Part shown: positions 8,830 to 14,024 of the stretch, piece by piece | Layout of the letters: each line of letters begins with the position of its first letter | Numbering within the stretch: position 1 is the first letter of the stretch | NCBI GenBank assembly: GCA_947384095.1 | Contig: CANDFU010000009.1 | Location: 1-14,024, forward strand | DNA length: 14,024 bases | Origin: an uncultured Roseburia sp. | GTDB taxonomy: Bacteria > Bacillota > Clostridia > Lachnospirales > Lachnospiraceae | Direction of reading: 5' to 3' | Program-made: the position numbers and the translations under genes | Notes under the pieces: generated by a model | Told to the model about the DNA's origin: nothing | Database searches by the model: none | Seen by the model: only the letters and a program-made list of their open reading frames with translations

Positions 8830-8866
8830 ATTTTTAGAACGAAAGAAAAGGGTAGTGTATGCAGTG

Positions 8867-9877
8867 ATGAGAAAGAGTAAGAAAAAACGAGGAATCGTTG
8901 CAGCGGTGGTTGTATTTCTGCTTCTGGCGGGGTATCTGACGGCGGTGAATACGCTTGTGAGCGCAGCGCTGGTGCCTTCTTTTATGGAGAAGCTGGAGGC
9001 GTTTGAACGGATTACGGAGGAGAGCTATGCGGCGCTGGCGCAGAGTCCGAAGATCGAGGAAAACCGTCGGGCGGCGCTGACTGACGCGCAGAAATGGTTC
9101 CGGGATGTAAAGCCCGGGAAGCCCGCCGTAGAAACCGGGGACGGGTATCGTCTGATCGCCGCGGAGTTTGCGGCGAAGGAGGAGAGCCATAGATGGGTCG
9201 TTCTCCTGCACGGCTATACCGGGTGGAAGGAGGAGATGTACCCTTTTGCCTACTGGTATGCCACAGAAGGATACCATGTCCTTGTGCCCGACCTGCGGTG
9301 CCAGGGGGAGAGCGAGGGAGACTTTATCGGGATGGGCTGGACCGATCATTTTGACTGTATGCTGTGGATTGAGTATATCCTCTCCTGCGACGAAGAGGCG
9401 CAGATCGTGCTTCACGGGCAGTCCATGGGGGCGGCGACGGCGCTGATGATGACGGGGGAGCAGTCGCTGCCCGGCAATGTCGGTGCGGTCATCTCGGACT
9501 GCGCTTATACGGACGCCTATTCCATGTTCGGAGAGAAGGCAGGAGAGTGGTTTCATCTTCCTGCATTTCCAATTGTGGACACAGCCCGTATTCTTTTAAA
9601 ACTGCGCGGCGGTTACGACCTTAAGGACGCGTCGGCCCTTGACGCGGTAAAAAAGAGTACGACGCCGACGCTCTTTATTCACGGGGATTCAGACGCCATG
9701 ATTTCTGTGGAAATGTCAAAGCGGCTCTATGAAGCGGCGGCGTGTGACAAGGAGCTTCTGATCGTCGAGGGAGCCGGACATGCACAGTCACAGGATATCG
9801 ATCCCGCTGCGTATTACGATACGATCAGAACATTTCTGCAGTCCCATCTGCCGGATACCGGGGAGGCTGGCTCGTAG
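8867..9877 (+). CDS. Membrane-anchored alpha/beta hydrolase
   Basis: A 336-aa serine hydrolase of the alpha/beta fold. A basic start (MRKSKKKRG) is followed by one hydrophobic segment (about residues 10-32), so the enzyme is probably tethered with its catalytic domain outside the cell. The fold core carries VVLLHGYTG (oxyanion hole, about residues 111-119), the nucleophile elbow GQSMG with S186, the acid in HGDSD (probably D276), and H305 in EGAGHA. This is the pattern of the YqkD/FrsA-like esterase or peptidase-like hydrolases often seen in Firmicutes. The substrate cannot be deduced. The frame is open from 8705, but the ATG at 8867 is chosen because the extension is a low-quality basic stretch that overlaps the promoter. 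GTG at 8864 is an alternative start, 11 nt from AAGGG. It diverges from argG and appears to be a single-gene unit. Confidence 0.88.
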   Translation: MRKSKKKRGIVAAVVVFLLLAGYLTAVNTLVSAALVPSFMEKLEAFERITEESYAALAQSPKIEENRRAALTDAQKWFRDVKPGKPAVETGDGYRLIAAEFAAKEESHRWVVLLHGYTGWKEEMYPFAYWYATEGYHVLVPDLRCQGESEGDFIGMGWTDHFDCMLWIEYILSCDEEAQIVLHGQSMGAATALMMTGEQSLPGNVGAVISDCAYTDAYSMFGEKAGEWFHLPAFPIVDTARILLKLRGGYDLKDASALDAVKKSTTPTLFIHGDSDAMISVEMSKRLYEAAACDKELLIVEGAGHAQSQDIDPAAYYDTIRTFLQSHLPDTGEAGS

Positions 9878-9978: not shown

Positions 9979-10208
9979 GAGGCTGTATGAGAATATAACG
10001 TCGTTTTAGTGCAGTTTCGGGTCGATTCATGACAGGCATCACCTTTTTGCAAACAGTTCCTGTATGATATACCTGTAGCAATCGTGACGGAATCGCGGTT
10101 ATGTGCAGAAGAAAAGCGGTATGACGATCTGTGCTGGCTGCACGCGCCGGTTTCTGACGGGCAGAGGCAGGATTGCTGCAAATATGTGATCAATCATGGA
10201 GGAAAAAG

Positions 10209-10823
10209 ATGAAAAAGAAATTTGTATCAGGTGTACTGGCGGTATTGATGGCGGTGTCAATGACAGCAGGCTGCGGCAGCAAGCCGCAGGCAGCAGCAGA
10301 CCCTGCGCCGTCTGCTGAGACAAAGGCGGAACCAAAAACAGAGACAAAAGCAGAGACGGAGACGAAAGCGGGAACGGAGACAAAAGCAGGGACAGAAAGT
10401 GAAGCTGCAGCCGACGACAGTGCGTCGGAGGATTTTACACTTCTTGATGTTTCCACAGACATGGTTCAGGCAGGAGTATACGCTGTGAGCGAGGAGGGGA
10501 CGGAGCTTGTATTCTCAATGTTTACGGAGCCTTCGGGAACGCCGATGACTTCCCTGTTTATATTTCCGGCAGCCGGCGGGGGCGATGTAATCTGCGGTAC
10601 TTATGAAGCTGAGACTGAGACGGACGAAGACGGAATTGCCTGGACATTGCTGACGGTTACGGATGCATACACAGGCGGCGAATTTGAGATTGGATTTGGC
10701 GAGTCAGACGCCGGAGAGGTATATATCTTTGACACAGAGGGGACTCCTTATGAGGGAGAGTATCTCTCCGCAGATGAGACAATCGATTATATGGGCGTGG
10801 CTGCGGCGCTGATGGAAGAATAA
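10209..10823 (+). CDS. Secreted lipoprotein of unknown function
   Basis: A 204-aa exported protein. The signal peptide has a KKK start, a hydrophobic run (VSGVLAVLMAVSMTAG) and lipobox TAGC with the modified cysteine at residue 22, so it should be a lipid-anchored surface protein. A low-complexity linker follows (about residues 28-75), rich in Glu, Thr, Lys and Ala with repeated ETKA units. The C-terminal part (about 76-204) is acidic and probably beta-rich, with no domain that I recognise. The ATG at 10209 has GGAGG (10198-10202) 6 nt upstream, and a longer in-frame start at 10173 lacks this. A strong hairpin follows 27 bp after the stop. The repeated linker DNA could vary in length between strains. 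No function is proposed. Confidence 0.88.
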   Translation: MKKKFVSGVLAVLMAVSMTAGCGSKPQAAADPAPSAETKAEPKTETKAETETKAGTETKAGTESEAAADDSASEDFTLLDVSTDMVQAGVYAVSEEGTELVFSMFTEPSGTPMTSLFIFPAAGGGDVICGTYEAETETDEDGIAWTLLTVTDAYTGGEFEIGFGESDAGEVYIFDTEGTPYEGEYLSADETIDYMGVAAALMEE

Positions 10824-10946: not shown

Positions 10947-11281
10947 GATTCTTTGTTCTTTCATAGGAAAGGCCTCGTTGCTGTGAAACACGGAAGTATC
11001 CGGCTTTTCTGTGAACTCCCATGGCGCGGTATCTGGCATCACCATGAATGAAAGGGAGTTCACAGAGCCTCCGGCGGATGCACGCAAAACGCCGGAAACG
11101 GGGATTCTGGCGCTGATACGGCCAGCGCGGCGGGAGCGCAGTCCTGTCTTTAGGATTCGCTGCTTTTCTGTGAAAGAAAAAGCCCTCCGGGCGGGAACGC
11201 ACTGCGCCTGAGAAGAAGTATGCCGCAAAAGCGGCCCGGCGCAGGCGGAGAATCCTGCTCTGCCGGATTCTTTGTTCTTTC
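10947..11281. repeat. Hairpin-rich element with copy B of the repeat, bounded by 16-bp direct repeats
   Basis: The 16-mer GATTCTTTGTTCTTTC occurs at 10947-10962 and again at 11266-11281. Between the two copies are a perfect 13-bp inverted repeat, TCTGTGAACTCCC (11008-11020) with GGGAGTTCACAGA (11054-11066), and further stems TCCGGCG/CGCCGGA (11070-11076 and 11090-11096) and GCCGC-AAAA-GCGGC (11222-11235). CTGTGAA recurs four times on the plus strand. The loop of the 13-bp repeat carries the core shared with copy A (9920-9978). The stretch 10824-11308 shows no gene I can support. Open frames on both strands here lack ribosome sites and overlap the lipoprotein gene or the hairpin. It may be a small non-autonomous repeat element, a structured RNA, or a regulatory region for the next operon. 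Confidence 0.55.
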
Positions 11282-11308
11282 GAATAATTAAGTGTGGAGG
11301 ATGGAACC

Positions 11309-12748
11309 ATGCGGATAGCAGTCTGCGATGAAGATGATCAGGAGGATTCGGGCATCAGGAAACTGCTGGCAGGATATCGGGTCAGCCGGGAGGAAGCTGT
11401 TGATTGTCATTATTTTACGAACACCATTGATTTTTTGTGTGATCTAAGAGGCGGTGAGTACGATCTTGTCCTGTTTCATGTTCTGACGCCGGGAACCGGC
11501 GGAATACGGGCCGCGCAGGAGCTGAGAAAACTGGACAGGAATGTCCGGCTTATTTTTGTATCCGCATCGCCGGAGTTTGCTGTGGAAAGTTACAGCGTGG
11601 GGGCATACTATTATCTGATAAAACCGATCGATGCGGATTCTTTTTTTTCGCTGCTGGATGAAATAGGAAGAGAACTGTCCGGCCAGACGGAGCAGGGATT
11701 TGTACTAAAGAGCAGGGACGGCGTTGTCAGGATCGCTTTCGCGAGGCTTGTATATGTGGAGGTCGTGAATAAAACGGTGTTTTTGCATCTGGCGGATGGG
11801 ACTGTCCGCGAGACGACGGCTACTTTGGCGGATTTTGAGAAGAAGCTGCTGCCAAGACCAGAGTTTTTGAAGACACATCGCTCCTATCTGGTCAACGCGG
11901 ACTATATTCGTGCAATTGAAATCAATTGTGTCGTGATGAAGGACGGGCAGAATATTCCGGTGTCGCGCCAGCGGCACAGCCAGATCCGGGATGACTGGAT
12001 GCGTTTTTTGCACCGGGAGGGAGCGGGAGATCTGGTGTGCGCCGCCGACGGGCAGGAGCGTACCGACGGTCCCTGGCGGATTCTGCTGGTAGACGATGAT
12101 CCGGCGGATCGCGCTGTCTGGGGGGATATCCTGCAAAGCCATGGCTGTATTGTACATCTTGCGGACAATGGGGAGGATGCCCTGCGGCTGGCGGCAGAAA
12201 ATCCTTTTGACTGCGTGCTGCTGGATGTGATGATTCCCGGCGAAGACGGTTTTTTTGTCTGTGAGAAGTTTCAAAAGTTAACGGATACACCGATTATTTT
12301 TCTGAGCTGCCTTTCAGAGCCCGACAAGCAGATGCAGGGGTTTGCATCCGGCGGTATTGATTACATTACGAAGGATACGCCGGCGGAGCTTTTCTGGGCG
12401 AAGGTAAAGACGCGCATCCGGCTGGCGGTGTCAGAGCGCACACAGCTGTGCTATGGCCCTCTTCTCCTGGATCTGAAGAGGAGGAGGGTGCTGATTGCTG
12501 AAAAAGAGCTGACGCTCTCGCCGGCTGAGTTTGATATCCTGTGCTGCCTTTCGGAGCACGCGGGGCATGTCATTACGCCCGGGGAAATGCATGGCATGAT
12601 CTGGGGCGGTCAGCCCTGGGACGGAGGGCAGATGGTGCAGACACATACGTCGCGGCTTCGGCGGAAGCTGGAAAAGGCGTGGGAGGGGCACCGTTTTATA
12701 GAGACGGTATGGGGGCAGGGTTATCGATTTGTGCCTCCGGAACGATAG
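11309..12748 (+). CDS. Dual response regulator: REC-LytTR-REC-winged helix fusion
   Basis: A 479-aa cytoplasmic transcription factor containing two complete regulators in one chain. Residues 1-120 form a receiver (MRIAVCDED acidic pocket, S85, K105 in YLIKP). The phosphoacceptor position is His57 (LVLFHVLTPG) instead of Asp. Residues about 130-235 form a LytTR DNA-binding domain (LVYVEVVNKTVFLHL, FLKTHRSYLVN, IPVSRQR). Residues about 257-375 form a second receiver with all key residues (ILLVDDDP, phosphoacceptor D306 in VLLDVMIPGEDG, S333, K355). Residues about 380-479 form an OmpR/PhoB winged helix (LTLSPAEFDILCCL, HTSRLRRKLE, ETVWGQGYRF). The start at 11309 has GGAGG 8 nt upstream, and nearby alternatives (11294, 11301) are badly spaced. 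The kinase gene follows after 33 bp. Phospho-control probably acts only through the second receiver (inferred). A joining artefact seems unlikely because the frame and linker are continuous. Confidence 0.9.
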   Translation: MRIAVCDEDDQEDSGIRKLLAGYRVSREEAVDCHYFTNTIDFLCDLRGGEYDLVLFHVLTPGTGGIRAAQELRKLDRNVRLIFVSASPEFAVESYSVGAYYYLIKPIDADSFFSLLDEIGRELSGQTEQGFVLKSRDGVVRIAFARLVYVEVVNKTVFLHLADGTVRETTATLADFEKKLLPRPEFLKTHRSYLVNADYIRAIEINCVVMKDGQNIPVSRQRHSQIRDDWMRFLHREGAGDLVCAADGQERTDGPWRILLVDDDPADRAVWGDILQSHGCIVHLADNGEDALRLAAENPFDCVLLDVMIPGEDGFFVCEKFQKLTDTPIIFLSCLSEPDKQMQGFASGGIDYITKDTPAELFWAKVKTRIRLAVSERTQLCYGPLLLDLKRRRVLIAEKELTLSPAEFDILCCLSEHAGHVITPGEMHGMIWGGQPWDGGQMVQTHTSRLRRKLEKAWEGHRFIETVWGQGYRFVPPER

Positions 12749-12781: not shown

Positions 12782-14024
12782 ATGAAGCAGTATCGGCTCT
12801 GGTGGAGGCCATTGTGTGTAATGGCCATGATGGCGTTTTTTTTTCATATTTTTATTTTATGCGGATAAAAAATATAACACACCGCCACCAAACGGCAAAA
12901 CCGGTGTGATTCGTCTGACTGAGGCAGATCTGAGGCGGAAAAATCCCGTCTTTCTGATTGACGGATGGCTTCTGACGGATGCGCGTGTGACGGATAAGCC
13001 GACTTATATCGGGGAATTTTCCAACCTGCAGCGCAGGGATCCGGAGGTTCCGCCGCATGGGCGGGCACACTATCAGCTGACGCTGCGCTATGATGGAGCG
13101 GAGCAGATTGTGTCGGTGGATTTTCCGCAGCTGTATTCCCAATATACGATTCTGCTGGACGGGAGAAGGCTTGCAGACGGAATGGGCAGCGGACGGGTTA
13201 CGTTTTTGCTGACGGCGGGCGACCACATACTGACTGTGGAGACTTCGTCTGAACAGGGATATTACAGCGGAATGTATTTTCCGCCTGCGCTGGGTACGGC
13301 GGAGACGCTGTTTCGGGTGAGCAGTGTCCAGAGCTTTGCCTATGCGCTGGCATTTGTGATTCCGCTGGCGCTGGCGGTATTTACGTTTTTTTTGTGGAGG
13401 ACAGGAGGGGGGCTTGCACGCTCATTCGGGGTGCTCTGTGGCAGCTATGCCTTGTACATGGCACGGTATTTTGTGTTTCTGCTGTCGTATTTTGTCTTTT
13501 TTCCCATTGTTCTGTACTGGTTTCTGATACAGAGCCTGGCGATGTACTGTCTGTGTTTCTGCGTTGCAGAGCTTACGGTTCTGGCGTCCGGAGCGGTGAG
13601 CGGTAATGCATGGCGGTGGGTGCGGGTATTTCTGCTGGTACTTCCAGCCGTTCTGGTGGCGCTGGAGCTGCTGATCCCGGTGCTGCCCTGGGCGGTCCTG
13701 GTTCATGGCAGGATTACGGATTTCTATTATGCTGCCACGTTTGGTGCAGCCGCTTTCTTTTCGGTGAAAGGCGTCACGGCGCAGAGCTGGGAAAGCCGCT
13801 ATACGCTGGCGGGCTGTATCGTGTTCGGGGCGGGGCTGCTGGCCAATCTTTTTTTTTCCAACCGTTTTGAACCTATCCGCTTTTTCTGGCAGTCTGAATG
13901 GTGCGGGTTTTTGCTGGTACTGTTATTTGGCGCCCTGATGGTATCGCGCAGCCGTCGTATCCTGAAGGAAAATGAAAAGCTGACCAATCACCTGGAGGAA
14001 CAGGTGAAGGAGCGCACGAAAGAG
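12782..14024 (+). pseudogene. 7TMR-DISM-like sensor histidine kinase, frameshifted at T9 and cut by the window end
   Basis: The partner sensor of the preceding regulator. From ATG 12782 (AAGGGG 8 nt upstream) the frame encodes a signal anchor (MKQYRLWWRPLCVMAMMAFF) and then stops at a TAA near 12866. The tract at 12836-12844 is nine T. Dropping one T joins this start to a frame open to 14024, giving 414 codons. The joined protein has the anchor, an extracellular domain of about 150 residues (VFLIDGWLLTD, YTILLDGRRL, HILTVETSSEQGYY), then seven hydrophobic segments from about 13340 to 13950. It ends in a linker (SRRILKENEKL, NHLEEQVKERTKE) of the kind that leads into a HisKA domain. The catalytic core is beyond the window. 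It may be a true pseudogene, a slippage-controlled gene or a base error. The extracellular ligand is unknown. Confidence 0.82.

Follow-up and report, generated by a model that had tools for sequence, protein, structure and literature searches.

Response regulators are normally single-output modules. Those of the OmpR/PhoB type carry one receiver with an intact phosphorylation site and one output, a Trans_reg_C winged helix, per chain, and they dimerise through the alpha4-beta5-alpha5 face of the receiver. LytR/AgrA regulators place a LytTR domain behind a receiver with a phospho-acceptor Asp. The DNA-contact motif of LytTR domains is given as FhRhHRS in PMC4227749. The LytTR promoters described in PMC6193735 contain nine-base repeats 12 bp apart, with a strong bias to a position 10 bp before the -35 element, and the LytTR regulatory systems (LRS) of that paper pair a LytTR regulator with a membrane inhibitor. 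The loci analysed here differ from all of these: a REC-LytTR module stands in front of an OmpR/PhoB-type regulator in the same chain, and the loci use receivers and kinases, the encoded partner being a HATPase_c sensor kinase rather than a membrane inhibitor.

The window, a stretch of 14,024 nucleotides, corresponds to the whole of contig C9 in a fragmented assembly (396 contigs, 61.6% complete). On its + strand, positions 11309 to 12748 form a single open frame of 479 aa, free of internal stops. The initial annotation had read this as one continuous frame with the domain order REC-LytTR-REC-winged helix, and both the frame and a Pfam search confirm it: Response_reg (in two stretches, the best at residues 258 to 361), LytTR (residues 138 to 228, E 2.6e-17) and Trans_reg_C (residues 399 to 474, E 4.1e-18) were all found above the curated cut-offs. 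The first receiver, REC1 (11309..11674, + strand; residues ~1 to 122), is defined by the second Response_reg stretch and by modelled strands and helices over residues 2 to 120. The four-domain reading needs one correction, as alignment with homologues places a His at codon 57 of the window's REC1 (11477..11479, + strand) instead of the phospho-acceptor Asp. The LytTR domain (11720..11992, + strand) includes the motif FLKTHRS at residues 186 to 192. Behind it, residues 236 to 255 (12014..12073, + strand) form a variable linker, recognised from conservation and pLDDT, which is the fusion joint between the two halves. The second receiver, REC2 (12074..12424, + strand; residues ~256 to 372), keeps D262, D263, D306, S333 and K355 intact, with the conserved phospho-acceptor Asp at codon 306 (12224..12226, + strand). 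The winged helix (12503..12730, + strand) has an OmpR/PhoB-like fold. The ATG at 11309 is the family start, with Met1 present in all 120 listed homologues, the window protein among them; a GTG at 11294 is also in frame.

All four domains fold in an AlphaFold2 model (mean pLDDT 81.6, pTM 0.46), and confidence is low at residues 237 to 251, which marks a loose linker. At this pTM the domains themselves are modelled with fair confidence, their mutual placement with low confidence. A Foldseek search with the model matched OmpR/PhoB regulators and also listed full-length ComE, whose likeness a sequence search assigns to the LytTR half. REC2 and the winged helix together align over their full length with the MtrA, RpaB and PhoB family models, all below curated cut-offs, and with structures of RpaA, PrrA, DrrB and MtrA. 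The front half, REC1-LytTR, is a complete regulator of the LytR/AgrA type and is related to stand-alone ones; it differs in having no free C-terminus, since the second receiver and winged helix follow, and in that REC1 is missing in some relatives.

The assembly is fragmented and the next gene changes frame within a run of T, so two genes could in principle have been joined through mis-assembly or a lost stop, and the initial annotation had allowed for a frame break at about 12030 to 12080. That stretch proves to be the weakly conserved linker: over residues 236 to 255 the majority residue averages 47%, against 75 to 82% in the domains, among the 120 listed homologues. The same full-length protein occurs in 120 listed clusters, and the join recurs in 30 other genome loci, which argues against a break. 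We regard the artefact as refuted, its remaining probability being negligible.

A search of 5.8 billion proteins yielded 1070 homologues at E<=1e-3, of which the best 120, including the window's own protein, were examined. The three Pfam accessions are present in every one of the 120, at lengths of 471 to 505 aa, and 28 of 28 diverse members picked from them match all three models. In a collection with one genome per species, relatives were found at at least 42 loci (L039-L080) among the best 80 of 563 matches; rows ranking below these are far weaker and mostly cover the OmpR half only. The 42 loci are named Lachnospiraceae, Clostridia, Roseburia, Dorea, Hungatella, Lachnoclostridium, Eubacterium or plain bacterium, and the family is found in Lachnospiraceae-type genomes. 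An even draw from the window's GTDB family gave matches at E<=1e-60 in 4 of 397 genomes, a count that takes in the window's own; in G425, another of these, the copy has no REC1. The fusion family is rare, scattered and real. Before the automatic REC1 count and the trees of 39 and 81 rows described below were made, we left out the window (L001), a second copy of L055 (L009), two loci with broken frames (L064 and L074) and two cut by contig ends (L075 and L080); the 44 loci compared for gene order include the window and L009, and the protein and locus sets overlap. The broken frames of L064 and L074 lie in the fusion copies themselves, and a tblastn search next to the broken copy of L074 did not find REC1.

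Two features could point toward decay of the window copy: His57, and the relatives' promoter-like sequence, which was not seen upstream. Decay is unsupported at the protein level, where four near-invariant positions are broken, as at least four are in 36 of the 120 listed homologues.

Immediately downstream of the fusion lies its likely partner, the sensor kinase HK1 (12782..14024, + strand), which is cut by the contig end. The window HK1 is 80% identical over 373 aa to that of L041, in which HATPase_c is found at 3.8e-27 and HisKA at 7.1e-5, the latter below the curated cut-off; that the gene following the fusion in relatives encodes a HATPase_c kinase, with HisKA matched weakly, is a further likeness to OmpR/PhoB systems. 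The start of the window HK1 (ATG 12782) and its body are in different frames, with the change falling within a run of nine T at 12836 to 12844, which may be either a sequencing slip or real. A comparison of neighbourhoods, as the initial annotation had proposed, found an HK1-group gene in 42 of the 44 loci and, in many relatives, a second two-component pair next door. SECR, a secreted-looking protein with no Pfam match, is encoded in 33 of the 44 loci. In many of them SECR and HK1 run convergently, and SECR points away from RR2, a REC-LytTR regulator, and HK2, a GHKL kinase; RR2 usually precedes HK2, and SPFH, zinc-ribbon-like and TPM genes follow in many loci. The window contig stops inside HK1, short of the region that would hold RR2 and the candidate operator described below, and the window's 61.6%-complete assembly gave no match to RR2 (E<=1e-60) or HK2 (E<=1e-40) and no site pattern.

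Two side observations concern these neighbourhoods. About 2.1 kb past the fusion in L048, a single open frame of some 614 to 622 aa covers both RR2 and HK2, with RR2 residues 1 to 208 running into HK2, perhaps another fusion of a regulator and a kinase. In the window, a lipoprotein-like gene of 216 aa lies upstream of the fusion at 10173 to 10823; it has relatives in 10 of the 44 compared loci, nearly always immediately upstream of the fusion.

An unfused relative indicates how the fusion may have arisen. Genome G399 encodes a 228-aa REC-winged helix protein (P0121; its sequence is identical to that of a protein named Diplocloster modestus) in the gene order RR2, HK2, P0121, HK1, SECR, with the neighbours recognisable by identity (HK1 53%, SECR 34%, RR2 63%, HK2 53%). 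P0121 thus shares the kinase, the neighbours and the family K-D signature of REC2 (YIQKDCPHELFWAK in P0121) with the fusion, and differs in its length and in having no REC1-LytTR. This locus makes it most likely that REC-LytTR was added in front of an existing OmpR regulator already partnered with HK1. REC2 of the fusion reads K-D-T at the signature, a departure from the OmpR/PhoB regulators of the outgroup, of which five carry K-P-F and two K-P-Y. The residues after the receiver Lys vary among 39 unfused proteins in the tree described below (KDC in 20; KNT, KEA and others in the rest), which suggests an unusual receiver subfamily.

Further unfused loci were sought in 392 genomes of the order, and 40 genomes gave a match; once the fused rows from G000 and G374 are set aside, the matches listed are 31 to 39% identical. 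We rejected the four best (L168-L171) as unfused relatives, because their adjoining kinase sequence is just 23 to 28% identical, and judged them to be general regulators. The idea that REC1-LytTR is a copy of the neighbouring RR2 is also unsupported, as the two fall in separate clades (SH-aLRT 99 and 100).

Other relatives lack the first receiver. Read from their N-termini, 8 of the 42 loci L039-L080 have no REC1; an automatic count called six of these and left two undecided owing to an upstream frame. REC1-less frames often open with the first strand of REC1 (e.g. MQIEICDAD) and then pass directly to the LytTR start QGFVLK. A second protein search, whose length limit excludes full fusions, returned 92 proteins, 40 of which are LytTR-REC-winged helix chains of 347 to 381 aa. 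By a simple pattern, 30 of the 40 keep a REC1-like first strand.

We built a tree of REC2 and the winged helix from 114 rows, comprising 39 unfused, 40 REC1-less, 28 full (a subset of the 120) and 7 outgroup proteins, with six fragments left out (P0134, P0156, P0158, P0202, P0204 and P0205). All fused forms fall in one clade (SH-aLRT 100, stem 1.03) with the unfused forms outside, and a single fusion event of two regulators is likely from this sequence comparison. The REC1-less forms are scattered among the full ones, and the branches starred in the tree force at least four changes. With a smaller tree of 39 locus rows, an AU test does not reject one single REC1 loss (p 0.119), though none of 200 bootstrap trees shows one, and the changes forced by the 114-row tree led us to set that reading aside. 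In a third tree, of 81 of 158 rows, REC1 requires 3 changes and Asp57 requires 6. Probably, then, REC1 was lost repeatedly, by several deletions.

The LytTR domain has been kept in the fused forms. F186, K188, H190 and R191 are invariant in 28 of 28 diverse members, and the FLKTHRS sequence conforms to the FhRhHRS-type motif, with Lys at the first Arg. Fused domains can drift, and the linker is flexible in the AlphaFold2 model, so the LytTR domain could have become a structural or dimerising part that no longer binds DNA, leaving the winged helix as sole actor. We consider this very improbable. The domain is conserved nearly like the others (mean majority residue 75%, with 22 of 100 columns above 95%, among the 120 listed homologues), it keeps the contact motif, and it is retained in all 40 REC1-less proteins.

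The two receivers differ sharply in how strictly they are kept. D262, D263, D306, S333 and K355 of REC2 are invariant in 120 of 120 listed homologues. Position 57 of REC1 is D in 110 of these, N in 6, E in 2, G in 1 and H in 1, the window copy. The invariant REC2 site, set beside a REC1 that is mutated or missing in relatives, makes it most likely that REC2 and its kinase command both DNA-binding domains. The proposal of the initial annotation that phosphorylation of receiver 2 could act on both outputs thus gains support from comparative sequence data. That REC2 is the main input is also suggested by HK1, which adjoins the unfused REC2-winged helix form too, and by the loss of Asp57 in 10 of 120 listed homologues or of REC1 altogether. 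As the window REC1, with His57, cannot take phosphate by the usual route, REC2 alone would command the window copy.

In most listed members REC1 signalling probably does matter, given the 110 of 120 that keep Asp57. One could therefore picture a GHKL AgrC-like kinase such as HK2 acting on REC1 and HK1 acting on REC2, with both inputs needed for full activity. REC1-LytTR is similar to stand-alone REC-LytTR regulators, and several of these adjoin HK2-like kinases; many relatives also encode HK2 at the same locus. The distribution of the parts fits such a two-input arrangement less well and leads us to think it doubtful: Asp57 is lost in 10 of the 120, REC1 is missing in many relatives while HK2 stays (L065, L068, L070 and L078), and loci without RR2 (L051, L053, L054, L055, L063 and L071) still keep Asp57. 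We prefer REC2 as the commanding receiver, with REC1, where intact, as an accessory, modulating input.

A candidate target for the LytTR head lies in the divergent promoter between SECR and RR2. In relatives this region shares TTACCGTTCGCGCAGTTTCRGCTACATTTCGCRC, a 21-bp direct repeat of the form ACCGTTCGC, 12 bp, ACATTTCGC, with a lag-21 identity of 0.59 against 0.13 to 0.35 at other lags from 6 to 27. The element ends ~9 bp before a -35-like GGTTTT, with a TATATT-like -10 behind it, a geometry of nine-base repeats, 12-bp gap and spacing close to that of the LytTR promoters described in PMC6193735. Such a LytTR-type repeat nearby is a further likeness of the relatives to LytR/AgrA systems. The initial annotation had suggested that the protein might bridge two different promoter motifs; the one conserved candidate target that was found is this single LytTR-type operator.

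We scored loci with a matrix built from 13 sites, which match by construction, and found the others by scanning. Sites above 25 bits are present in 29 of the 42 loci L039-L080, the maximum in shuffled loci being 14.7, and six of the 13 siteless loci end too early (L039, L040, L046, L058, L059 and L064). All 25 RR2-bearing loci have a site, including L074 with its broken fusion and L075 and L080, where the end of the contig truncates the fusion. L044 and L067 have the site too, and their contigs stop beyond it. Five REC1-less loci have it as well (L065, L067, L068, L070 and L078). Nine fused loci with long flanks have no RR2, and of these two have a site, L071 (41.5 bits) and L063 (26.5 bits), and seven have none (L051, L053, L054, L055, L066, L069 and L073).

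This pattern could mean that the repeat is an autoregulatory site of RR2 itself, with the fusion's LytTR domain binding elsewhere. RR2 is a LytTR regulator, every RR2-bearing locus has the site, L074 keeps it beside RR2 despite the broken fusion frame, and the LytTR regulatory systems of PMC6193735 are described as autoregulating through such repeats. L138, one of five genomes with RR2 and no fusion match, carries another 21-bp direct repeat, perfect and of different sequence (two copies of ACATTTCAG), between RR2 (8850 to 9578, - strand) and another divergent REC-LytTR gene, on the upstream side of RR2. The seven siteless loci without RR2 fit as well, although the site would be lost together with RR2 whoever binds it, because it stands in the promoter of RR2. 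Other observations speak against this reading. None of the five genomes with RR2 and no fusion match has the site (the best scores in L011 and L124-L127 reach 2.4 bits, and 8.0 over wider stretches), and direct repeats in these RR2 promoters include no shared element; the absence of the fusion there is judged from sequence searches, one of the genomes (G233) being 76% complete. In G399, which has RR2, SECR and the unfused regulator, the matrix finds nothing beside RR2. L071 has the site, and its genome gave no RR2 match at E<=1e-40, a search in which the control L048 was detected. An RR2-owned site is thus a real possibility, though one we lean against.

That RR2 without the fusion has no site in any of the five genomes favours the fusion as binder. 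In a tree of RR2, the genes of fused loci group together on a weak branch (support 81), and gain of the site coincides with gain of the fusion; owing to this grouping, the coincidence counts roughly once. From these comparisons we slightly favour binding of the 21-bp repeat by the fusion, alone or shared with RR2.

Conservation is not confined to the repeats. Information per base is 1.53 bits in repeat 1, 1.38 in the 12-bp centre and 1.39 in repeat 2; the 15 bases before the site are mostly under 0.4 bits, and the GGTTTT after it reaches 0.87 to 1.43. A centre as conserved as the repeats suggests that some protein reads it, which might be the winged helix of the fusion or another protein. TTC/TTTC elements in the site stand 10 and 11 bp apart. 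A more specific arrangement, with the LytTR head on the outer repeats, the winged helix on the 12-bp centre, REC2 alone licensing binding and REC1 shed by lineages, is offered tentatively and is rather unlikely to hold in every part.

The initial annotation had also suggested that one DNA-binding domain might serve autoregulation, an idea that the region in front of the fusion gene leaves unsupported. A sigma-A-like promoter, TTTGATTG ... TGTGGTATCAT, recurs there in many relatives, and inspection by eye saw no common repeat. In the window, this promoter was not seen within 11000 to 11308. An inverted repeat, GAATCC...GGATTC, occupies its place.

Taken together, we propose that the protein is an OmpR-type regulator to whose N-terminal side a complete REC-LytTR regulator has been joined, and that the whole would work as one switch. 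HK1 would phosphorylate REC2, as its pairing with the unfused form also suggests, and two chains would then pair through REC2 in the manner of OmpR kin. Pairing would deliver two domains of each kind, LytTR and winged helix, to DNA together, and the LytTR head would bind the 21-bp direct repeat in the SECR/RR2 promoter of relatives, so that the second system, RR2-HK2, would be placed under the first as a cascade. The architecture, its conservation, the gene order, the monophyly of the fused forms, the existence of REC1-less relatives and the strict conservation of the REC2 site are established; for the entire chain from HK1 through both heads to the cascade, read from sequence, we see the case as evenly poised.

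The domains and partners are of known kinds, and their combination appears to be new, at least to us. The initial annotation knew of no described family with the order REC-LytTR-REC-winged helix, and a search of the open-access literature, with most subscription journals outside its scope, found no description of this architecture either. That annotation did not mention His57, nor did it cover the unfused relative, the proteins without REC1 or the second two-component pair of relatives. In this family one conserved chain combines two DNA-binding folds that are unrelated to each other, and it has relatives that are unfused or lack one receiver. The family thereby lends itself naturally to testing how the domains of a fused signalling protein are wired, which of the receivers is in charge and whether two DNA-binding folds can work on one operator. 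If the operator reading is true, one two-component system would control its neighbour by having captured a DNA-binding domain of the neighbour's type.
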